Shown here: positions 13,282 to 26,511 of the stretch, one piece after another
Numbering within the stretch: the first letter of the stretch is position 1
Layout of the letters: each line of letters starts with the position of its first letter
NCBI RefSeq assembly: GCF_003026215.1
Contig: NZ_PYOC01000001.1
Coordinates: 744,001 to 808,000, forward strand
DNA from: Photobacterium indicum
Lineage (GTDB): Bacteria; Pseudomonadota; Gammaproteobacteria; Enterobacterales; Vibrionaceae
DNA length: 64,000 nt
Direction of reading: 5' to 3'
The notes under the pieces: model-generated
Told to the model about the DNA's origin: nothing
The model's database searches: none
The model's input: the letters and a program-made list of their open reading frames with translations, nothing else
Program-made: the position numbers and the translations under genes

Positions 13282-14064
13282 TTAAACAGCTATGGTCTCA
13301 GGCTGTAAATATTGCTGCCATGCATTTTGGTATAGGTTTAAAGACTCAGTTCTAAGTTTTTCTATCTGTGCTAATTCAAACTCAGAGATGTTACGTTCTT
13401 CTGTCATACTTGTGCGTTCGATACGTTGGATTTCTTCGTATATCTTGTGTTCAGCACCATTTTTTACCGTAGATATGGCTTCTAAGTGAAGTTGAACTTC
13501 TGCAATCACTTGGCTTTTTGGTAAGCGTACTAATAATTTAAAATCACGGTAGCCAGAAGCTGTCGGGCTTTTAAAGCGATTTTTAACCGCAACAACAGAG
13601 ACTTCTTTATTCAGCAATTCTAGTGATTGCATCAAACTCGGTATATCATTTGCTACTAATGAGCATCGTGCCAAATCGGTAATACGATGAGTTTCACCTT
13701 GTAACTCTGTCTTGATTTTTTCTTTAGCGCGTTCTTCTGATTTAACTGCTGGCACTAAAGCTTGAGTGTTTGAATGCAATGCTATCTCACGAGCCAGAAG
13801 ATCTAATTCTTGCTGGGCATGTGTTGCTGCATGATACAGTTGGTTAAAATTACTGTAAGGCTGGGTAATATTCTGTTCTGTCCAGCTATTGACGTTATAA
13901 AGGCCACTTAGGCTACGCTGAAAAGACTTTTTACCTTCTTGTGTTTGGTAAGGGGAAACTTCATAGTCAGAATCTGAATATTGAGGTAGTGGTGCAGCGA
14001 TCGAAGTACGACCGAAGACGATAAGGAGAACGAAGAAAGTACGAAGTACAGATTTCATGTGCAT
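13282..14064 (-). CDS. Secreted RelA/SpoT-fold (nucleotidyltransferase-like) protein, copy 1
   Basis: 260 aa with an N-terminal Sec signal (MHMKSVLRTFFVLLIVFGRT, cleavage near SIAAP), so it is predicted to leave the cytoplasm. Residues about 108-215 resemble the RelA/SpoT synthetase fold: a basic segment (SEERAKEKIKTEL), THRITDLARCSLVANDI with D130 at the metal-binding Asp, SGYRDFKLLVRLP at the GYR loop, AEVQLH with E189 at the catalytic Glu of E(I/V)Q(I/L)R, and KNGAEHKIYEE with H206. Family synthetases pyrophosphorylate guanosine nucleotides; whether this one does is unknown. A good ribosome site (AGGAG, 7 nt) precedes the start. It is a paralog of the next gene. Confidence 0.7.
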   Translation of the reverse strand: MHMKSVLRTFFVLLIVFGRTSIAAPLPQYSDSDYEVSPYQTQEGKKSFQRSLSGLYNVNSWTEQNITQPYSNFNQLYHAATHAQQELDLLAREIALHSNTQALVPAVKSEERAKEKIKTELQGETHRITDLARCSLVANDIPSLMQSLELLNKEVSVVAVKNRFKSPTASGYRDFKLLVRLPKSQVIAEVQLHLEAISTVKNGAEHKIYEEIQRIERTSMTEERNISEFELAQIEKLRTESLNLYQNAWQQYLQPETIAV

Positions 14065-14316: not shown

Positions 14317-15099
14317 TTAACTTACGGCCAATTTAGGCTGTAAATATTCTTGCCATACAGAGTGGTAAAGATGAAGTGACTGATTACGCAATTGTCTTAT
14401 TTTTGCTGACTCTATATCATTTAACTGACGATTATTTGCTTTAGCAGTACGTTCAATTGTTTGAATCTGTTCATATAATTGGTGTTCTTTACCATTTTTA
14501 ATATCAGATATACCCTCTAAATGAAGCTGTATTTCTGCAATATGTTGGCTGTTTGGAAGACGAACTAACATTTTTAAATCTCGATATCCTGATTTTGCGG
14601 GTTGTTTGAAACGGTTTTTCACTTCAACAATCGTCACTTCTTTACTCATAAGTTCAAAGGCCTGCACTAAACTACCTATGTCATCGGCAACTAAAGAGCC
14701 TCGTGCTAGGTCTGTTAATTTATGTACACTTCCATTTAATTCCGTTGCTATTTTATATTCGGCTCTGTCTCGTGATTTAATGCCCGGTGATGAAGCTCTT
14801 GTACCAGTCATCATCGACGTTTGTTGAATGAGTTGCTCTAATTCATGTTGAGCAATATAGGCTTGTTGATATAGAGAATCGAGATCATTCTGATCTTGCA
14901 CAATGTGCAGCTGCCTCCACGTTGGGATCGCATAGAGACCACTTAGCGATCCTTGGAAAGATTTTTTTGACTTCTGCGCTGATGAGGGAAGTTCGGATTC
15001 TGAATCGGTGTAATTAGGCAAACTGGCTGTAGCGATAGGGCTACGACCTAATACAAATAAAAGAACAAAGCAGGTGCGAAGTATAGATTTGGTACCCAT
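14317..15099 (-). CDS. Secreted RelA/SpoT-fold (nucleotidyltransferase-like) protein, copy 2
   Basis: 260 aa from the start at 15099 (MGTKSILRTCFVLLFVLG), chosen because AGGAG lies 7 nt upstream; the in-frame ATG at 15117 has no such site. A Sec signal peptide ends near IATAS. It is collinear with copy 1 and similar throughout: SFQGSLSGLY, VHKLTDLARGSLVADDI (D130), SGYRDLKMLVRLP, AEIQLH (E189), KNGKEHQLYE. Both metal/catalytic acidic residues of the RelA/SpoT synthetase fold are kept. The 252-bp gap to copy 1 and a hairpin suggest separate transcription. Possible roles are a secreted toxin or an envelope enzyme; none is proven. Confidence 0.7.
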   Translation of the reverse strand: MGTKSILRTCFVLLFVLGRSPIATASLPNYTDSESELPSSAQKSKKSFQGSLSGLYAIPTWRQLHIVQDQNDLDSLYQQAYIAQHELEQLIQQTSMMTGTRASSPGIKSRDRAEYKIATELNGSVHKLTDLARGSLVADDIGSLVQAFELMSKEVTIVEVKNRFKQPAKSGYRDLKMLVRLPNSQHIAEIQLHLEGISDIKNGKEHQLYEQIQTIERTAKANNRQLNDIESAKIRQLRNQSLHLYHSVWQEYLQPKLAVS

Positions 15100-15413
15100 T
15101 AAAGCTCCTGTATGCACATAACTTAGAAATTAAAACTGCCAAAGTGTGCTGGTTCGGATGAACAACATATCCGTGTACATAAGATATCTGTCTTCATTAT
15201 CTTGTTTCAATGGGTGAATTGATAAAATGAGAGGTGGTAATATTAAGGTTGTGACGTGCTTCCCATTGTGTATATTTTGAATGATTCATATCAGCTGAAA
15301 CTCCTATTAAGGTGTTACGAAATATGTAGTTCTTACTGATGCTCTTAACTTAGCTGTTACCATTGCTTAGTGGTAAACTAGCTTTGTTTCTTATTTCAAT
15401 AAATGGGTGAATT
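15100..15413. other. Intergenic region without recognised features
   Basis: About 310 bp between divergent genes. It presumably holds both promoters, but no operator, terminator or small gene is recognisable. Confidence 0.4.
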
Positions 15414-15858: not shown

Positions 15859-16215
15859 TTATGCACTTTTTGTAATAAGTGGATCGACACTAAAATTGAT
15901 ACCCACCCAACCATATTTCATAAAATTGCGAATATTCATGTGATCGACGTTGTCAGGGTTTTGTAATACATCAATACGATAATAGTTACCAAAACACGCT
16001 AGGGTTTCTGCTTCAGACAATTCATGTTTTTTAGCAAAAGAGAAGATACGGCAAGAACCTTCATTAGTGCCTATTGCATTGGTGAGTGTTTCATTACCTA
16101 AACCATTTGTAAAAGATGCAGGCGAAAAATCATAATGCTTATTAATGGTTTCAATGACTGTTTCAAATGCGATCGATTCAGGGTGAGTTTTTAATCTATG
16201 AATAAGCGCTTCCAT
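15859..16215 (-). CDS. HopJ-family protein
   Basis: 118 aa. The start at 16215 (MEALIHRLKTHPESIAFETV) is preferred over the upstream in-frame ATG at 16308, because a GGAG site precedes it and the upstream gene's terminator lies inside the longer version. The sequence carries FTNGLGNETLTNAIGTNEGS, the hallmark of the HopJ family, plus LACFGNYYRIDVLQNP. The family was named for a plant-pathogen type III effector, but homologs are common in free-living marine bacteria without such a system. No secretion genes are nearby. The function is unknown. Confidence 0.8.
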   Translation of the reverse strand: MEALIHRLKTHPESIAFETVIETINKHYDFSPASFTNGLGNETLTNAIGTNEGSCRIFSFAKKHELSEAETLACFGNYYRIDVLQNPDNVDHMNIRNFMKYGWVGINFSVDPLITKSA

Positions 16216-16279
16216 GGCTTTATTTCTCCAAAATTGATAGTGCTTGGTTTTAACCATACCGATTAGTTTATTAAAGAAT

Positions 16280-16303
16280 AAAAAAGGGCTATAAAGCCCT
16301 TTA
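16280..16303 (-). terminator. Intrinsic terminator of the DUF2750 gene
   Basis: On the minus strand AAAGGGCT-TTAT-AGCCCTTTTTT, with a T run, lies 41 nt past the stop at 16344. It separates the DUF2750 gene from the HopJ gene. Confidence 0.8.
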
Positions 16304-16343
16304 AACATATTTGTTATGATACTACTTAGCGTTGCTAAGAGGC

Positions 16344-16936: not shown

Positions 16937-17938
16937 CTATTTTAGGGTGTAAGGAATACGAACAGTAAGTTGGAAGTCAGGGGCATCTGCTGTTAATCCT
17001 GCTGATGCACCAACATTGATAGTGGTATCACGGCTAACAGCATAGTTAGCACCTACAGAAAGGGAGTCTAGCTGTAAAACTTTTGCATTAAAGTTTTCAA
17101 CACCACTGACCTTTGATTTAAAGATTGTCTTGTGACTCAAGCCAAGGCTGAATGAGAACTTAGGGTTAACAGCAAAGCCCATACCGGCACCAAACGAAAT
17201 GGTATCGCCAAGGTCAATGGATGCTTTTGTTCCTGCTAAATCAACATCATCTTCAATATTCCAGATATAGCTCGTATTCATGTAAATCACAGCAGGATCG
17301 ACTGGCATTATCATCGTTAAGCCAGGCTCTATGCTTGGAAAGCCTGAACCTGTTGGCAAATCATCAGGTGAACCTTCATAAGGTGAGTCGCCTGTTGTGC
17401 TTTTGAAGCGTAAACTACCTATCCAATAAGGGGCGGTATTCATATTGAATTGGTATTTAAACCCCGCCTCAATGTCACCTAAACCATTTCCATCTAAATC
17501 AATTAATATATCTTCGTCTTGTCCTATACCAGCAGAACGCTCTGAAATAGAGTCGCTTCTATATACCCAAGGGATTCGCACCTCTACTTCAAATCGGTTT
17601 GTTATGCCGTAACGACCAGATAGACCAAATGTTATTGTTGTTCTATCAATATCACTCGCTTGTATTAACCCTACAATTAAAGAGGGTAATACCGAATAAC
17701 CAACAACAGAGATCGTATTTGATGAATTTTGCGTATAAGACAGTGAGGAATCAATAACAAATGACCCCCTTGGTGTTAAGACACCTGGCTGTTCAAAAAT
17801 GTCAGCAACAGTTTGAACTCGTTTAGGTTTTTCTTCTTCAGCATTTTTACTAGGTTCTGTTTCCTCTGCTGCAATAACGGCTGCGTTAGAACATAAAGCA
17901 AGAAGCGCAATCAGGCTTTTATATTTGAATTCTTTCAC
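16937..17938 (-). CDS. FapF-like outer-membrane beta-barrel protein
   Basis: 333 aa. The start is taken as the GTG at 17938 (VKEFKYKSLIALLALCSNAA), with GAGGA 5-6 nt upstream and a signal peptide ending near VIAAEE; a longer frame begins at 18004. After a charged linker comes VADIFEQPGVLTPRGSFVID, then alternating beta strands with VGYSVLPSLIVGLIQ, YGITNRFEVEVRIPWVYRSD and a final strand ending in FQLTVRIPYTLK. This pattern resembles FapF, the secretin-like barrel that exports Fap amyloid subunits in Pseudomonas. It is divergent from the subunit genes, unlike the single Pseudomonas operon. The fap assignment is inferred from memory of the family. Confidence 0.65.
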   Translation of the reverse strand: MKEFKYKSLIALLALCSNAAVIAAEETEPSKNAEEEKPKRVQTVADIFEQPGVLTPRGSFVIDSSLSYTQNSSNTISVVGYSVLPSLIVGLIQASDIDRTTITFGLSGRYGITNRFEVEVRIPWVYRSDSISERSAGIGQDEDILIDLDGNGLGDIEAGFKYQFNMNTAPYWIGSLRFKSTTGDSPYEGSPDDLPTGSGFPSIEPGLTMIMPVDPAVIYMNTSYIWNIEDDVDLAGTKASIDLGDTISFGAGMGFAVNPKFSFSLGLSHKTIFKSKVSGVENFNAKVLQLDSLSVGANYAVSRDTTINVGASAGLTADAPDFQLTVRIPYTLK

Positions 17939-18313
17939 GATTTCCTCACTTCGGTACAAAGGTAGTCCATAAAAAAGTGTAAGTTGGTAACAAAATAATA
18001 CCAAGCAATATAAAAAGAGTAGTAGATGATAAGTTAAGCTGTTAATTATTTGTCTCAGAATAATGTCTTATATATGAGATGAGCATGAATCAGTCTTATA
18101 AGTAATAAATGTAATGTTTATGAGTTGCTGTTTTTTTAATTGGAAGAGTTAATATATAAATTGCTGGAATTAATATTAAGTTTTTATATTTAAAAACATT
18201 TGAAGTTATCAAAAATAATACAAGGTTATAATTTTACAACACTACTATTAAGTTATCTCGCAGCACATTGCGGGTAACAATAAAAAAACAACAAACATAT
18301 TTGGAGTAACACT
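17939..18313. promoter_or_regulatory. AT-rich divergent promoter region of the Fap-like locus
   Basis: About 375 bp, very AT-rich, between the FapF-like gene and the first subunit gene. It must contain divergent promoters. No sigma-54 (GG-N10-GC) promoter or clear palindrome stands out. AAACATATTTGGAGTAACA directly before the 18314 gene recurs before the 19586 gene. Confidence 0.4.
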
Positions 18314-19003
18314 ATGCGTAAAACTAATCTCGCACTTCTTGTGGCAGTTGTTGTTAGTTCACCAATAGCTTTAGCTAATTACTATCCACCGGCACCTGTT
18401 AATTCAGGGAATGACAATACAGACATTTATAAAAACGATGTTGGTAATAAAGACATTGACATTGATAAAGAAGATAGTCATGACCTTTATGTTGATGTTG
18501 ATGATTCATTTAATCATGAATCGAACTACGACACTACAACAGATACTGAGACAAATTATACCAAAAATATTAGCCGTGATTATGATAATGACACATTGAC
18601 AATGAAGAATGTCAATAATGATGAGAGTTACTATAACCAAGACAATAGCGATAATAGTACAGTTTGGAAAGATACTCTTAATGTAACTGAAGATATTAGC
18701 TGGGATGTTAATTTAGAAGAGAACCATTATGTATCTACTTCTTATTTAAGTGGTTATGTTACTGACAACGAAGTGACATATGGTGGTGCATGTTGTGATG
18801 GTGATGGTGGCGGCTATGGTCATCGTGGTGGTTATAATGATGATGATGGTGGTATGGGTGGAGACTTCTTTGTTGACCAGTCTAACTCTATGATGGATTC
18901 ATTTAACGGTTCTTCTGGTATCAGCATGGCTGGTCAAAATGCGGGTAATAACTCAATGCTTCAGCAAAGTGCTAGCACAAATGCTGTTCTTGTTGGCTAT
19001 TAA
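18314..19003 (+). CDS. Secreted N/D-rich amyloid-subunit candidate 1
   Basis: 229 aa. The Sec signal (MRKTNLALLVAVVVSSPIAL, cleavage near ALA-NYY) is followed by a low-complexity region rich in Asn, Asp, Ser, Thr and Tyr (about 35-140), then VTYGGACCD with adjacent cysteines (about 154-162), a Gly/Asp-rich segment, and a C-terminal SGISMAGQNAGNNSMLQQ motif. It shares all these blocks with the 19586 product (DNDTLT-KN, DNSDNS, GGACCD, AGQN-GNN). The composition and Q/N motif resemble Fap-type amyloid subunits, but this is not a clear FapB or FapC. A GGAG ribosome site precedes the start. Confidence 0.6.
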   Translation: MRKTNLALLVAVVVSSPIALANYYPPAPVNSGNDNTDIYKNDVGNKDIDIDKEDSHDLYVDVDDSFNHESNYDTTTDTETNYTKNISRDYDNDTLTMKNVNNDESYYNQDNSDNSTVWKDTLNVTEDISWDVNLEENHYVSTSYLSGYVTDNEVTYGGACCDGDGGGYGHRGGYNDDDGGMGGDFFVDQSNSMMDSFNGSSGISMAGQNAGNNSMLQQSASTNAVLVGY

Positions 19004-19047: not shown

Positions 19048-19380
19048 ATGAAATATTTAACACTGATAGTTGCAGTATTAATTACTTGTAGTGCTGCTGC
19101 AGATGAGTTGGATATTCTAGCAAGTTCTGAAATGCTAAGCGATACATCAATGAATCAATCTCGTGGCGGTCAATATGAGTTGAACATAGATGTAATGCAT
19201 GCTGAATCAGACATGTACGGTGATGTTCAAGGAAATGGTGCCTACAATAATACGACAGGTGCCAATATGATAACTGAGGGTGCATTTGGTGAGTCATCTG
19301 GTATTTTTAATGTAGTTCAAAATACTGGTAATAATGTTCTTATCCAAAATGCAACAGTAGTGAACTTGACGTTGAAGTAA
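19048..19380 (+). CDS. Small secreted protein with RGG pro-segment and QN motif
   Basis: 110 aa. The Sec signal (MKYLTLIVAVLITCSAA) is followed by a short segment ending LSDTSMNQSRGG (about residues 31-42), which fits the double-glycine leader pattern LSxxELxxIxGG. The C-terminus has SSGIFNVVQNTGNNVLIQNA, the same QN-x-GNN motif as the large subunits. A strong AGGAGG ribosome site lies 45 nt after the previous gene, so they are probably co-transcribed. It may be a minor or nucleating fibre subunit matured by the C39 peptidase encoded at 20380. The function is inferred from context. Confidence 0.55.
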   Translation: MKYLTLIVAVLITCSAAADELDILASSEMLSDTSMNQSRGGQYELNIDVMHAESDMYGDVQGNGAYNNTTGANMITEGAFGESSGIFNVVQNTGNNVLIQNATVVNLTLK

Positions 19381-19397
19381 GCTGTTAGCGTATCTAA

Positions 19398-19422
19398 GCT
19401 GACATATAAAGAATATGTCAGC
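19398..19422 (+). terminator. Intergenic hairpin after the small RGG protein gene
   Basis: GCTGACATA-TAAAGAA-TATGTCAGC, a perfect 9-bp stem without a T run. It may protect mRNA or partly terminate. Confidence 0.4.
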
Positions 19423-19585
19423 GACGACTCTACAGACCACTAATTAGGGGTTGTTTTATAGGGACTAACATCATCACTTAATACATGATTGCTTGTTTAT
19501 AATTAGCATTGTGTCGAAAAGATATAAATAATAAACCCTATGTTTAAGTTATTACAATAATAAATAACATATTCGGAGTAATATC

Positions 19586-20215
19586 ATGCGTAAATCAAAT
19601 ATCGCACTATTAGTAGCAGTTGTATTCGCATCACCACTAGCATTAGCTGTTACACAAGACAGTAATAATACCATTAAAGTAATAGAAGATTCTTATAATA
19701 CGGATGTTGATGTTGATAAGGTAGATAGCCATGACAAAGACATCTATGTGACTAATGTTGGCAACACTGAATACAATGATACGGTAGATTATACAGACGA
19801 AACTAATACTGAAATCGATAAATCAAGTACTTATGATAACGATACATTAACCTTGAAAAATATTGGTAATGATAGAAGCGTTTGGAAACAAGATAATAGT
19901 GATAACTCGATGAATTCGACTTATGACACTACGATGGACTACTCTGAAGCTTGGGATGTTAACATCGAGATCGATACGTATATGTCGGCTGCTGAGTTAG
20001 ATGGTGCAGTTATGGGCTCAAATGTGACATATGGTGGTGCATGCTGCGATAGTGGAAAGAGTGGTTCGGGGGGAGATTTCACTGTTAATCAAACCAACTC
20101 TATGTCTAACTCTTTTGGCGATGCCTCTGGTATCAGTATTGCGGGTCAGAACGTAGGTAATAACGCGTTGGTACAGCAAACTACAAGTACAAATGCGGCT
20201 TTGGTTTCTCCTTAG
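19586..20215 (+). CDS. Secreted N/D-rich amyloid-subunit candidate 2
   Basis: 209 aa and a paralog of the 18314 product. Sec signal MRKSNIALLVAVVFASPLAL; Asn/Asp/Thr-rich central region (about 25-130) with DNDTLTLKNIGNDRSVWKQD and DNSDNS; VTYGGACCDSGKSG (about 145-158); then FTVNQTNSM and a C-terminal SGISIAGQNVGNNALVQQ. It lacks the longer Gly/Asp segment of its neighbour. Even the 5' leader (ACATATTCGGAGTAATATC) parallels the first gene, pointing to tandem duplication with the small RGG gene in between. Probably a fibre subunit; the role is inferred. Confidence 0.6.
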   Translation: MRKSNIALLVAVVFASPLALAVTQDSNNTIKVIEDSYNTDVDVDKVDSHDKDIYVTNVGNTEYNDTVDYTDETNTEIDKSSTYDNDTLTLKNIGNDRSVWKQDNSDNSMNSTYDTTMDYSEAWDVNIEIDTYMSAAELDGAVMGSNVTYGGACCDSGKSGSGGDFTVNQTNSMSNSFGDASGISIAGQNVGNNALVQQTTSTNAALVSP

Positions 20216-20233
20216 TCAATATAGCTATTTGTT

Positions 20234-20251
20234 AAGGGCCTTAGGGCCCTT
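20234..20251 (+). terminator. Hairpin between subunit 2 and the C39 peptidase gene
   Basis: AAGGGCC-TTAG-GGCCCTT with a weak following TATTAATTT. It may reduce read-through from the abundant subunit mRNA into the peptidase gene. Confidence 0.45.
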
Positions 20252-20379
20252 ATTAATTTCCCAAAATTGTTACAAATGAGACAAAAATATTAATCAATTA
20301 GTTAATACTTGAAATATAAATACATTAAATAAATTGTATGTTAAACACTACGATTTGTTTGAGCATATAACATAATGGT

Positions 20380-21060
20380 ATGTTTATGAAAACGTCTCTG
20401 TTTATTATTGCTGGCTTTTTTCTTAGTTCATCAGTTTTTGCTCTCGATTATTTTCCGAGTAGAGGTGCATATAATGTCAAAGTTAAAAGTTACCAAGAGA
20501 AAGTTTTTGGCGATGTGCAAAGGCAACAATATGACTTTAGTTGCGGTTCTGCGGCTGTTGCATCTTTATTAACTTATCATTATGGTTTAGAAACATCCGA
20601 AAATACTGTATTTGAATATATGTTCAAATACGGAGATAAAGAAAAAATAGAGCAACAGGGTTTTTCCATGCTAGATATGAAAAAATATCTGGAAGCTCAA
20701 GGGCTAACGGCAAATGGATATAAGTTACCGTTAATGAAATTAAAGAAATTAGGCGTTCCAGGTATTACAATTGTAAACTTTGATGGCTATATGCATTTTG
20801 TTGTAATAAAAGGTATGAATAGCAGTCAAGTTATACTCGGAGACCCCTCTCGGGGTACACTAACAATGGATATCGATGATTTCGAAGCTGGTTACAAAGG
20901 ATTAGTATTATTAGTTAAGAATAACGTTAAAGTTGGCAAAGAAAGTTTCATAAAACAAGAAAATTATAGTGTTTACACGCCCTCTCCTGTTTCAGAGGCT
21001 GTAACTAGAGAATCACTTGCAACCTTTAGTATTACTCTACCTGGGGCAAATGATTATTAG
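20380..21060 (+). CDS. Secreted C39-family cysteine peptidase (FapD-like)
   Basis: 226 aa, possibly 224 from the second ATG at 20386 (MKTSLFIIAGFFLSSSVFAL), with a Sec signal. The domain at about 35-190 has the C39 triad: Cys in QQYDFSCGSAAVASLL, His in GYMHFVVIKG, Asp in LGDPSRGT. The order and spacing match C39 peptidases, which cleave after double glycine in bacteriocin and related leaders; a C39 protein (FapD) is part of Pseudomonas fap operons. Here it is free and exported rather than fused to an ABC transporter. It sits between genes for small secreted proteins whose pro-segments end in RGG, its likely substrates. A tail of about 40 residues follows the domain. Confidence 0.75.
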   Translation: MFMKTSLFIIAGFFLSSSVFALDYFPSRGAYNVKVKSYQEKVFGDVQRQQYDFSCGSAAVASLLTYHYGLETSENTVFEYMFKYGDKEKIEQQGFSMLDMKKYLEAQGLTANGYKLPLMKLKKLGVPGITIVNFDGYMHFVVIKGMNSSQVILGDPSRGTLTMDIDDFEAGYKGLVLLVKNNVKVGKESFIKQENYSVYTPSPVSEAVTRESLATFSITLPGANDY

Positions 21061-21068
21061 AGGCTAGT

Positions 21069-21569
21069 ATGAAAAAAACATCAAAATGGTTTTTTGCATC
21101 TGTAATAGGAGGTGCGGCCTTTTGGGCTAGCGCATCAATAAATCACGAAACTATAGATGATTTTGGTTTACTTACAATGAGTGAAACTGAAATGTCATCG
21201 ATAAGAGGTGGTTTCGTATCCATTAATGATACATTAATTAATATTGGATTATCTATCTCGACAGCGCTAAATGGCGAAAAGGTATTTACCTCCTATATTG
21301 CAGATCTAACGATAGATAATGGGGTGCTAACATCCTCTTCATCATCAGCTAAACCTGTAAGTGTAGTCCAAAATGGTGAAGGTAACACAGCACCAGAAAC
21401 GATAAGTATTGATACTGGTAGTATCGCGAGTATTATTCAAAATACAAGTGACAATACAACGATACGAGTAGAAACTCAGTTAGATATACAGGCTGATGTG
21501 AATAGCTATCTTGAAAGACAAGTTATTAACAATAGAATAGAGAATTCTATATTGTATTCTTCTTATTGA
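21069..21569 (+). CDS. Secreted protein with double-glycine pro-segment, co-transcribed with the C39 peptidase
   Basis: 166 aa, starting 8 nt after the peptidase stop. The N-terminal signal (MKKTSKWFFASVIGGAAFWA) is followed by MSETEMSSIRGG (about 37-48), which matches the classic LSxxELxxIxGG leader at nearly every conserved position. The remainder is Ser/Thr/Asn/Ile-rich with two Q/N motifs (VVQNGEGNT, IIQNTSDNT) like those of the other subunits. It is a candidate FapE- or FapB-like minor component processed by the neighbouring peptidase. It is not a recognised family to me; assignment is by motif and context. Confidence 0.55.
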   Translation: MKKTSKWFFASVIGGAAFWASASINHETIDDFGLLTMSETEMSSIRGGFVSINDTLINIGLSISTALNGEKVFTSYIADLTIDNGVLTSSSSSAKPVSVVQNGEGNTAPETISIDTGSIASIIQNTSDNTTIRVETQLDIQADVNSYLERQVINNRIENSILYSSY

Positions 21570-21853: not shown

Positions 21854-23230
21854 ATGTACATTGATAGCGTGGTGATTTCGATGGTGACTCAATCTAAAAA
21901 TAAATCAATAAATGGTCGTCTTGTTGCAATTGGTTGTAATTATGAACCTTGGATTGCGCTTCTTGAACAATCAGGATGGAAAACACATTGTTGTTATGAT
22001 CTTAGGACAGCAGATTCAATACTAGAAGAGTACAGCCCATGCATATGCATTGTTGATTTAAGCAATAACGATTTTAGCTTAAATAGTATTTCTTTGAGGG
22101 CAAATAAAACTAAGCAAGTACGTTGGATTGCGTTAATTAAAAATGAGCAGCTAGAAACGGATGCTATCTGTCAGTTTATTAATAATTATTGTGTCGATTA
22201 CTTTTCAATGCCGATACCTAGCACCTTACTCTTAGACACTGTCGGACATCAACTTGGTATGCTTGAGATAGAAGCAAAAACTTGGGTTGAGGTAACGTCA
22301 CAGCACGATATGGGACTGTATGGTGACTCTAAATCGGTAAAGCAACTTCGTGATATGGTTAGACGTGTAGCATCAACAGAAGTGAATGTTTTTCTTACTG
22401 GTGAAAATGGTACAGGAAAAGAACTTATCGCGAAATCAATTCATAATTTGTCTAAGCGTAAAAATGCACCTTTTATTAATGTTAATTGCGGCTCACTAAC
22501 ATCAGATGAAGAGAAAATTGCATTTTTAAATTCGGCAACAAAACTTCATGATGATGAAAAGCCCAAATTTAATGGTACTATTTTACTCGATAATGTTGAA
22601 GAATTGTCAAAAGAACTACAAGATGAATTGTTAAGATATTTACAGGCACCTGCAGGGGAGTCTATAAATGAAGACGTAAATTGCGATATACGTATAGTCG
22701 TTTCATCAAGTGCAGATCTTGAAACTGCAGTAGCTAACGGTGAATTTAGTAAAGAGCTCTACTATCGCTTGAATGTGTTCCATATTAAAGTGCCGACTCT
22801 TAGAGAGCGTGGTTCTGATATTTATCTTTTAGCAGAAAAGTTTTTAGGTCAATTTTCTAATGAATATAATACTTTAGCATCGAGTTTCTCTGAAGACTCT
22901 AAGCAGTTACTCTTACGCTATAGTTGGCCTGGTAATGTAAGAGAGTTAATGAATCAAGTAAAGCGTGCAGCATTGCTTGCTGAGGGTAGCGAAGTAAAAG
23001 CTGAGCATTTTGATTTGCCAAGTAAATCTAACCTTAAGCAAAGCTTGCGTAATATTAAAGATGAAGCGGAAAAAGATGTATTAGTCGCTGTACTTGAAAC
23101 ACACCGTGGTCAAGTTGCTTCAGCGGCCAAAGATCTGGGTGTATCTCGCGCTACTATGTATCGTCTATTAAATAAACACAATATAGTTCCTGATGTTCGA
23201 TATTATAATAATGGGCAAATGGGTGAATAG
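21854..23230 (+). CDS. VpsR-like NtrC-family transcription regulator lacking the GAFTGA loop
   Basis: 458 aa. A degenerate receiver-like domain (about 20-140, CICIVDLS at the phospho-Asp position) is followed by an AAA+ domain (about 155-395) with Walker A GENGTGKE and arginine region YYRLNVFHIKVPTLRERGSDI, and a Fis-type HTH (QVASAAKDLGVSRATMYRLL). The L1 loop GAFTGA that contacts sigma-54 is absent (NSATKLHDDEKPKFNG instead), and Walker B is GTILLDN rather than D-E. VpsR, the c-di-GMP-responsive biofilm activator of V. cholerae, shows the same losses and works with sigma-70. Its location suggests control of the Fap-like genes. The start could be the ATG at 21881; neither has a clear ribosome site. 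Confidence 0.75.
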   Translation: MYIDSVVISMVTQSKNKSINGRLVAIGCNYEPWIALLEQSGWKTHCCYDLRTADSILEEYSPCICIVDLSNNDFSLNSISLRANKTKQVRWIALIKNEQLETDAICQFINNYCVDYFSMPIPSTLLLDTVGHQLGMLEIEAKTWVEVTSQHDMGLYGDSKSVKQLRDMVRRVASTEVNVFLTGENGTGKELIAKSIHNLSKRKNAPFINVNCGSLTSDEEKIAFLNSATKLHDDEKPKFNGTILLDNVEELSKELQDELLRYLQAPAGESINEDVNCDIRIVVSSSADLETAVANGEFSKELYYRLNVFHIKVPTLRERGSDIYLLAEKFLGQFSNEYNTLASSFSEDSKQLLLRYSWPGNVRELMNQVKRAALLAEGSEVKAEHFDLPSKSNLKQSLRNIKDEAEKDVLVAVLETHRGQVASAAKDLGVSRATMYRLLNKHNIVPDVRYYNNGQMGE

Positions 23231-25211: not shown

Positions 25212-26318
25212 CTATGCTGCTTTGTATTGATCGCGTCCTGCTTCTTTCGCTTTGTAGAGTTGGTCGTCAGCTTCTTGCACTAGTTGCTCTGGTCCCTTTT
25301 GAGTTTTCCATGTCGTTATGCCTTGGCTAAGTGTAACGAAATCATTCACGCTAGAAGATGGATGGGGTATTGCTTCTTGTTGTAGGGTGCGATGAATACG
25401 TTCGGCGACTTTTTTGGCACCTTCTAAATGGGTATTGGGTAGAATAATAATAAACTCCTCACCACCATAGCGAGAAACAGAGTCTGATGTACGTAATAGG
25501 CTTTTTTGTAAGGTGCGGGCAACACGTTTTAAGCATAAGTCACCAGCAGGGTGACCAAGGTTATCGTTGTAATGTTTAAAATGGTCGATATCAATTAAGA
25601 TAACAGACAGCGGTAAATGATTACGTTTTGCTAAATGGCAATGCTTATCTATTTCATATTCGAAAAATCGTCTGTTATAAAGGTTAGTTAACTGATCTTT
25701 GGTTGCTAGGTCAGAAAGCTTTTTTACCAATCTTTGATTTTCATGATCTTTTTCAACACTGTTATAAAACCAACGGTATAGCGTTCTACGGCCTGTTTCT
25801 ACAATAATACAGATAGCCAGCACTTTTTCTATCGGCAATAACAACAGATGTCCAGCCTCAATGTAGTTTGCCCAAGTACTTACCAATAAGACGGGAAATA
25901 TTGCAGCGTAAACGGCCTGACGAAGTGCATAGAACCCTAATAAAGAAGTCATCATGATTAAATCTGCCGCTATTTCAGCACTGGGCCACATTTGCCCAAT
26001 GAAAGCGATGTGGTAAATAGCTAATGCCCAGCTAATGCCAAACAGTAAGGCGTAGAGTGTGGCTGTTTTGCGCCACTGTTGAGGGGGGGATTGCGAGTGG
26101 TAGAGAGCAATTCCTATCAAATAGACAATTGCTTGAAATGAGTATTGAGTCCAAGAACGATCTAAATACAGAGCGTTTTCTTTAATACCATTAAGCCAAA
26201 TAGGGCCAACTATCATTAGTAAAATAATAAGAGAGATTGTTGCCGCCCATCGAAAACCAATCCGTATGTTTCTATAAGTTACGTCGTCTAACTGTTTAGC
26301 TAATGTTTGCTCATCCAT
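25212..26318 (-). CDS. Membrane-bound diguanylate cyclase (GGDEF) with I-site
   Basis: 368 aa from the ATG at 26318 (MDEQTLAKQLDDVTYRNIRI). About six membrane segments (25-185) are followed by a short coiled linker and a GGDEF domain (about 205-365) with LIDIDHFKHYNDNLGHPAGD and active site RYGGEEF. RTSD precedes the active site at the I-site position, so feedback inhibition by c-di-GMP is possible, unlike the cyclase at 5828-7069. It is transcribed in the same direction as the MltF-like gene after a 79-bp gap. Confidence 0.9.
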   Translation of the reverse strand: MDEQTLAKQLDDVTYRNIRIGFRWAATISLIILLMIVGPIWLNGIKENALYLDRSWTQYSFQAIVYLIGIALYHSQSPPQQWRKTATLYALLFGISWALAIYHIAFIGQMWPSAEIAADLIMMTSLLGFYALRQAVYAAIFPVLLVSTWANYIEAGHLLLLPIEKVLAICIIVETGRRTLYRWFYNSVEKDHENQRLVKKLSDLATKDQLTNLYNRRFFEYEIDKHCHLAKRNHLPLSVILIDIDHFKHYNDNLGHPAGDLCLKRVARTLQKSLLRTSDSVSRYGGEEFIIILPNTHLEGAKKVAERIHRTLQQEAIPHPSSSVNDFVTLSQGITTWKTQKGPEQLVQEADDQLYKAKEAGRDQYKAA

Positions 26319-26511
26319 GGCACATTCTTCTATCAATTCATTATCAAGTTGAGTGTACTTTATAAAGGAAAAGGCAAGGAATTTATTTTCATAAATGGGA
26401 GGAGATTACACAATAAAATTGTTGACAAAAATGATTGTAAAAAACGTTACATGCAAAAATTTGGCACTGTTCAAATTCATTGCTTGTTCACTGTACTACG
26501 ATCAAAATAAA

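Follow-up and report, generated by a model that had tools for sequence, protein, structure and literature searches.

What does a C39 peptidase cut when it is free and exported by the Sec pathway, rather than forming part of an ATP-binding cassette (ABC) exporter? The question is raised by a locus of Photobacterium indicum lying in a stretch of 64,000 nucleotides (assembly GCF_003026215.1, contig NZ_PYOC01000001.1, positions 744,001 to 808,000 of the forward strand), hereafter the window, in whose own numbering all coordinates are given. Here a free C39 peptidase gene (20380-21060) stands between the genes of two exported proteins, one at 19048-19380 and one at 21069-21569; the three open reading frames (ORFs), all on the + strand, encode 226, 110 and 166 amino acids (aa) respectively. 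We found that both proteins carry, behind a Sec-type signal, a segment spaced like a double-glycine (bacteriocin-type) leader, and that such a segment recurs in the gene directly downstream of C39 in nearly all related loci, including the FapE proteins of the Fap amyloid system. Judging from its position and conservation, the C39 of the locus very probably cuts at this RGx motif, in one register or the other. The locus itself is best explained as a Fap-like amyloid secretion locus, in a clade sister to canonical Fap.

A free C39 peptidase beside the FapD clade

The initial annotation of this stretch had described a signal-bearing free C39 peptidase with intact catalytic residues, and the profile match and alignment agree. 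The product belongs to PF03412 (79.8 bits, cut-off 22), and Q49, C55, H139 and D155 (codons at 20524-20526, 20542-20544, 20794-20796 and 20842-20844, + strand) are invariant in all 98 aligned free C39 sequences. These came from 95 stretches around free C39 genes and, with the window, made up 98 C39 entries, namely 36 of the window clade, 41 of the FapD clade and 21 others; weaker or fragmentary C39 loci (for example those of G340, G467, G496, G502, G526, G565 and G597) stayed outside the set.

In the C39 tree the window clade (36 rows, SH-aLRT support 100) stands beside the FapD clade (41 rows, support 97) with the remainder outside, that is, the window's clade is sister to the FapD clade and does not lie inside it. 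Against the FapD equivalog NF058616 the window's peptidase scores 138 bits, below the curated 330. The tree was made by a quick method, after loci whose E-values overlapped between the FapD clade and the others had been assigned following the motif scan. Alignment columns that separate both clades (65, 67, 51 and 57 among others) were considered as an S1 pocket and discarded as evidence, because the two clades differ at many sites.

The C39 domains of ABC exporters (PCAT1, ComA, LahT150) share with the window's peptidase the fold, the catalytic residues and the leader spacing of -12/-7/-4/-2. The window's enzyme differs in being free and bearing a Sec signal, its putative substrates carry a Sec signal first, and no ABC exporter was found among the neighbouring proteins scanned in the window. 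Cytoplasmic ABC export of the two flanking proteins was rejected on these grounds, as a Sec-type core precedes both leaders and the scanned neighbours hold no exporter.

A leader motif behind the Sec-type signal

Both flanking proteins had been annotated as having a Sec signal followed by a short pro-segment ending in RGG, and the ORFs and their translations bear this out. In the small 19048 protein the signal comprises residues 1-18 (19048-19101; Ala18 in 115/119 family members) and the pro-segment residues 19-41 (19102-19170), ending in LSDTSMNQSRGG by the family alignment, with leader positions -12 to -1 at 19135-19170 and R39-G40-G41 at 19162-19170. The predicted mature protein (19171-19380, stop codon included) would start with QYELN and has the conserved C-terminus QNTGNNVLIQN. 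In the 21069 protein the signal comprises residues 1-22 (21069-21134, cleavage point judged by eye) and the pro-segment residues 23-48 (21135-21212), with the leader MSETEMSSIRGG at 21177-21212 and R46-G47-G48 at 21204-21212; its predicted mature form (21213-21569, stop codon included) would start with FVSIN. Signal peptides were called throughout by a hydrophobic-core rule and by eye, with no trained predictor.

The two pro-segments had further been said to fit the bacteriocin leader consensus, and this holds in part. Both have the hydrophobic residues at -12, -7 and -4 and the Gly at -2 of double-glycine leaders, except that -4 is Ser in the 19048 product, but the leader model TIGR01847 does not match the 19048 product and falls short of its cut-off on the 60-aa N-terminal piece of the 21069 product (13.4 bits against 15.7, E 0.095), where the match ends exactly at G48.

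The motif is conserved in the gene directly downstream of C39. In the window clade RGG was found there in 35 of 36 entries (31 by pattern, L095 separately, and L129, L166 and L167 by inspecting loci that the pattern had missed), the exception being L171, whose C39 is truncated (183 aa). In the FapD clade the corresponding residues are RG[RK] in 38 entries, KGK in L103 and HGK in L159, giving [RKH]G[RK] in 40/41, with TGK in L161. Leader positions were counted on 68 pieces, one per locus (29 of the window clade and 39 of the FapD clade, with L092, L165, L129, L166, L167, L161 and L171 outside the set), picked by a pattern that fixed -7, -4, -3, -2, -1 and +1 and left -12, -10 and -8 free. At the free positions, I, L, V or M occupies -12 in 27/29 window-clade and 39/39 FapD-clade pieces, Asp or Glu occupies -10 in 16/29 and 36/39, and Glu occupies -8 in 15/29 and 31/39. 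Among the fixed positions, -7 is Leu or Met and -2 is Gly in 68/68, and with one exception -4 is Leu, Met, Ile, Tyr or Gln (Gln in 10/68). Arg stands at -3 in 29/29 window-clade and 37/39 FapD-clade pieces, -1 is Gly in 29/29 of the former and Arg or Lys in 39/39 of the latter, and +1 is Phe in 28/29 and Tyr or Phe in 39/39 respectively. Judged by sequence, the downstream-gene motif is spaced as in double-glycine leaders, with Gly at -2 and hydrophobic residues at -12, at -7 and, for the most part, at -4.

The residue at -1 follows the C39 clade, since among the entries counted RGR or RGK occurs in no window-clade downstream gene and RGG in no FapD-clade one. Two genomes hold both clades (G306 with L111 and L135, G731 with L155 and L170), and in each the leader beside either C39 fits that peptidase's own clade. 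GG is thus not universal; what varies is -1, and what stays constant is Gly or Ala at -2. GG as the invariant feature was ruled out by the FapE proteins of the FapD clade together with the distant 19048-type proteins considered below.

The 21069 protein stands in the place of FapE

An iterative profile built from six 21069-family members (the window's included) was run through the ORFs around the 98 free C39 genes. It reached the gene directly following C39 in FapD-clade loci, including all eight whose C39 scores above the NCBI FapD cut-off; it was not used alone as the link to FapE, because its later rounds also drew in FapB-type and 19048-type proteins. The FapE model NF058559 (curated cut-off 250 bits) matches one relative, P0012, weakly (15.7 bits, residues 18-72), and matches 40 of the 68 leader pieces, counted over both clades together. 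Position and sequence indicate that the 21069 product is a distant FapE relative in FapE's place, which the curated cut-off does not admit to the family. When 30 window-clade proteins of this kind are aligned over their full length, R46, G47, G48 and F49 are the sole invariant columns; these proteins (24 from loci, 6 from databases) had been picked among RGG bearers, with L126 (Leu at +1) and L129 (Ile at +1) left out. An AlphaFold model placed a short helix at residues 39-45, directly before RGG, and was set aside as too poor.

The small 19048 protein and its family

In the family of 119 proteins that includes the window's 19048 product, -12 is L, V or I in 118/119, -11 is Ser in 73, -7 is Met or Leu in 118/119, -3 is Arg in 118/119, -2 is Gly or Ala in 119/119 and -1 is Gly in 105/118. 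More distant 19048-type proteins at the corresponding position retain the -12/-7/-2 pattern with the variants RGR, RGM, RGT, RGQ, RAK, RAM and SGR. The initial annotation had staked its proposal on the conservation of RGG among homologues; this stood in the window clade's downstream genes, but the core common to both clades is R-G-x, and in the 19048 family the conservation partly fails. A filter for 19048-type proteins found none in 9 of 35 window-clade loci (L091-L094, L130, L164, L168, L170 and L171) and the pattern was misplaced in several others; other scans nevertheless saw such a gene in most of those nine, with no full count given. Many homologues of the 19048 product bear the public name 'carbon storage regulator', probably a wrong name carried along, since these proteins are signal-bearing and rich in Q and N.

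Leader families occur with the peptidase

A C39 of the window clade occurs in 10 of the 295 genomes of the order. Both leader families are present in exactly these 10, beside or close to C39, with E-values no higher than 1.6e-27 for the 21069 type and 1.7e-9 for the 19048 type; the other 285 hold neither apart from one 21069-type match in a 637-aa ORF of G188 (E 0.008), which we took as chance. The co-occurrence that had been proposed as a check on the annotation is therefore found.

At the level of single genes, 75 loci were compared. A strict leader behind a Sec-like core was present in 47 of 54 signal-bearing ORFs lying 350-1300 bases downstream of C39, against 3 of 134 signal-bearing ORFs at distances above 4 kb, the pattern having been written after the motif had been seen. 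On a 7-point score built from the bacteriocin consensus, 22/54 downstream-slot ORFs reached 6 or 7 versus 3/134 distant ones, and 47/54 versus 31/134 reached at least 5. In this comparison the longest ORF was simply taken as the gene, a rule that overlooks genes where loci are rich in GC.

Relation to Fap and other known systems

The published record of Fap provides a precedent. FapD is a periplasmic, Sec-exported C39 whose knockout and C38A mutant secrete no FapC; its target was left unclear in 2017, the Fap proteins being said to lack canonical C39 sequences, and GG or GA in FapE or FapF was suggested as a possible cut site (PMC5557850). In that work FapE peptides were missing from the first ~70 residues, and peptides reported throughout FapA to FapD were taken as no processing. 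The FapD substrate is elsewhere described as yet to be determined (PMC6173800), or FapD is thought to process FapF and the FapE N-terminus (PMC12822426); the accessible parts of PMC11787515 and PMC12392863 have nothing on the FapD cleavage site, and PMC3792158 considers that FapD and FapF likely belong to larger families, with no leader mentioned in its accessible text. The annotation knew of no description of GG-leader processing in a Fap-like system. FapD and the suggested GG/GA cut are earlier, but we found in the open-access literature no description of a double-glycine-type leader behind a Sec signal in Fap.

The window locus and Fap of Pseudomonas are alike in having a free C39 exported by Sec, with a FapE-type gene immediately after it, a FapF-like pore and Q/N-rich subunits, and their leaders share L(-12)..E(-8)L/M(-7)..(-4)R(-3)G(-2)x. 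They differ in that the window's C39 is in the sister clade, its scores against the FapD and FapF models fall far short of the curated ones, its -1 is Gly where canonical FapE has Arg or Lys, the FapE model does not match its 21069 product, another small protein with a leader (19048) lies upstream, and its FapF-like gene is in the opposite orientation with a product of short N-terminus. Compared with the canonical fapA-fapF set, the window has C39 then a FapE-like gene, with the FapF-like gene nearby.

Leader-like motifs were also seen in other parts of such loci. In 9 of 93 FapF-like proteins, each of at least 397 aa, L/I-x-x-x-R-[GA]-x was found by eye ahead of the barrel (L122 LDTQRGG, L129 LAEQRGG, L165 LATKRGG, plus L135, L160, L164, L166, L167 and L169); a tenth case, L159, is without the hydrophobic residue at -7. 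The motif hints that C39 may also cut some FapF-like pores. The putative pilus system FilA/FilB/FilC (NCBIfam) likewise combines a free C39 (FilB) with a FapF-like neighbour. Six of the 11 loci of its C39 clade (L175, L176, L177, L178, L139 and L137) encode a signal-bearing protein whose signal is followed at once by an MxDxxLSxVTGQ-like motif. Unlike the window, Fil belongs to another C39 clade, has Gln at -1 in most cases and in 5/11 loci shows no such gene by pattern in the stretch read; FilB matches were checked for 3/11 loci and a FilA match for one (L175). The FapF-like and Fil-type figures are raw counts, to be read as leads.

In the FapB-type genes upstream of C39 in 39 FapD-clade loci, Gly occupies the -2 place in 39/39 and I, L or V the -12 place in 33/39. 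This spacing is degenerate and weakest in loci above the FapD cut-off, and L157 gave none. We treat FapB-type genes as a lead only, the Gly possibly being part of the amyloid repeat and FapA to FapD peptides having been reported throughout (PMC5557850).

Organisation of the locus

The order of genes is the FapF-like gene (- strand), the 18314 protein, the 19048 protein, a paralogue of the 18314 protein, C39, the 21069 protein and a regulator; the closest named homologues of the locus proteins are from Photobacterium. The FapF-like outer membrane pore (16937-18004, divergently encoded, short N-terminus) scores 159.4 bits against the FapF equivalog NF058560, below the curated 700, and is homologous nonetheless. 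The large signal-bearing product of 18314-19003 (+ strand) is Asp/Asn-rich with a C-terminal GQNxGNN..QQ motif and is a candidate main fibre subunit by its position and sequence. Its paralogue at 19586-20215 (+ strand, 209 aa), also inside the interval covered by the initial annotation, goes beyond what that annotation listed. The two have in common a Cys pair within a GGACCD stretch and the C-terminal GQNxGNN motif; both bear a signal and neither has a leader motif behind it. An RGG in the 18314 product was rejected as a leader, as it sits inside a Gly-rich stretch and is missing from the paralogue. Neither these two products nor the 19048 product matches any family model in the libraries scanned, in which the presence of FapA, FapB and FapC models was not confirmed.

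The leader-bearing proteins had been taken for the fibre formers, and this assignment has to be revised. From their sequences, the 18314 and 19586 products are likely the main fibre proteins and lack the leader, and the FapE-like 21069 protein and the small 19048 protein probably serve as minor or accessory subunits. An amyloid nature for the locus proteins is suggested by their Q/N motifs and by homology to parts of Fap.

Adjoining the locus is a VpsR-domain regulator of sigma-54 type (21854-23230, + strand; PF20161, 163 bits), and a MASE5-GGDEF diguanylate cyclase lies nearby (25212-26336). Together they suggest biofilm and cyclic di-GMP control; a regulatory link between the regulator and the locus is putative. 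On the other side of the locus, on the - strand, are two tandem paralogues at 13282-14064 and 14317-15117, whose N-termini resemble signals and whose weak RelA_SpoT matches stay under the gathering score, and a HopJ-domain protein at 15859-16308 (PF08888, 151 bits; family name only).

Proposed mechanism and alternative explanations

The annotation's two-step route, in which Sec export precedes cutting by C39 in the periplasm, remains the best explanation of the locus and is in keeping with the co-occurrence, but it has a precedent in FapD, and the role given to the proteins and the weight given to GG need correction. We infer that Sec would carry the FapE-like 21069 and small 19048 subunits across the inner membrane, where the signal peptide would be lost. 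In the periplasm they would then present a bacteriocin-type leader, with hydrophobic residues at -12, -7 and mostly -4, Arg at -3 and Gly at -2, which the C39 would bind and cut, most likely after -1; the predicted bonds are RGG|F and RGG|Q in the window and RGR|Y or RGK|Y in canonical FapE. The trimmed mature subunit would be released for passage through the FapF-like pore, the leader likely serving to dock to the peptidase and to restrain the subunit until the pore is ready.

Several observations weigh against this account. The residues usual at -1 for C39 cleavage are Gly, Ala or Ser, and the Arg or Lys of FapE in the FapD clade is unusual for C39; the switch at -1 may moreover be a single event, because each C39 clade is one group. 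In distant 19048-type proteins -1 and -3 vary, and L095 has no R-G there, a variation that tells against a strict GG and favours a leader in which -2 is Gly or Ala. Among the 68 leader pieces, the leader models TIGR01847 and TIGR03949 each match a single one, with a score under the cut-off. Sequence ties the 21069 family to FapE weakly, as the window's 21069 product does not match NF058559 and the 21069-type profile has no match in any of the 9 genomes, out of 295, that hold a FapD-clade C39. AlphaFold models the FapE-like protein poorly, with a mean pLDDT (its per-residue confidence score) of 56.6. The genome itself holds a second C39 domain elsewhere (G000:C35:315480-315863), within a 712-aa ORF of exporter size. 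Finally, the missing FapE peptides may have another cause, because the gap (~70 residues; PMC5557850) exceeds the predicted cut, which in the FapE of L148 falls behind residue 40, counted from the sequence.

The main doubts are the acceptance of Arg or Lys at -1 and the register, in which the constant Gly at -2 could be P1. Cleavage after -1 is the register towards which we lean, with no great margin of confidence. That the same C39 would cut one residue earlier (RG|G, RG|R), with Gly or Ala as P1, is a variant of the same account that we consider rather unlikely. Gly or Ala at P1 is usual for C39, and the occupancy of -2 (68/68 FapE-type leaders, where the pattern fixed it, and 119/119 of the 19048 family) beside a variable -1 fits the earlier cut; however, the hydrophobic residues at -12, -7 and -4 match canonical leaders only with a cut after -1, and the earlier bond puts Arg at P2, where C39 needs Gly. 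It is improbable that the RGx segment stays uncut and serves instead in docking or export, being recognised by the FapF-like pore or by C39 acting as a chaperone. Catalytically inactive C39-like domains do exist (PMC5557850), and the similar motif in FapF-like proteins may mark a shared contact site, but the Gln, Cys, His and Asp of the free C39 are invariant throughout and the C38A mutation of FapD abolishes secretion (same source). We give slightly less credence still to the idea that the main targets of C39 are the FapF-like pore or the large fibre proteins, with the pro-segments of the small proteins retained or removed by other periplasmic proteases. FapF cleavage has been suggested in print (PMC5557850) and LxxxRGG-like motifs precede the barrel in some FapF-like proteins; yet the window's FapF-like protein and most others are without the motif, the 18314 and 19586 products have no leader, and the downstream gene almost always has one.

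Discussion

With cleavage of the leader by C39 as the preferred account, the RG[RK] leader of FapE is likely the site of FapD, to judge by the alignment. The full GG in the window's relatives makes the leader visible, and alignment then reveals it in the FapE of the FapD clade, so that the open question of the FapD target now has a predicted bond. Tryptic peptide mapping need not show such a cut, because the ends predicted for FapE lie behind Arg or Lys, just where trypsin cuts.

Whether the route reaches further is a matter on which our confidence stops somewhat short of even. FapF-type fibre systems in general may mature in this way, by Sec export and then removal of a bacteriocin-type leader by C39. 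If so, the route would cover canonical FapE, the window's FapE-like and 19048-type proteins, some of the FapF-like pores and the FilA-type proteins of FilB systems, and the residue at -1 would be particular to each C39 clade (Gly; Arg or Lys; Gln). The leader would then be the long-sought recognition site of FapD and a checkpoint of secretion, and the logic of leader peptides would extend from cytoplasmic exporters to the periplasm.

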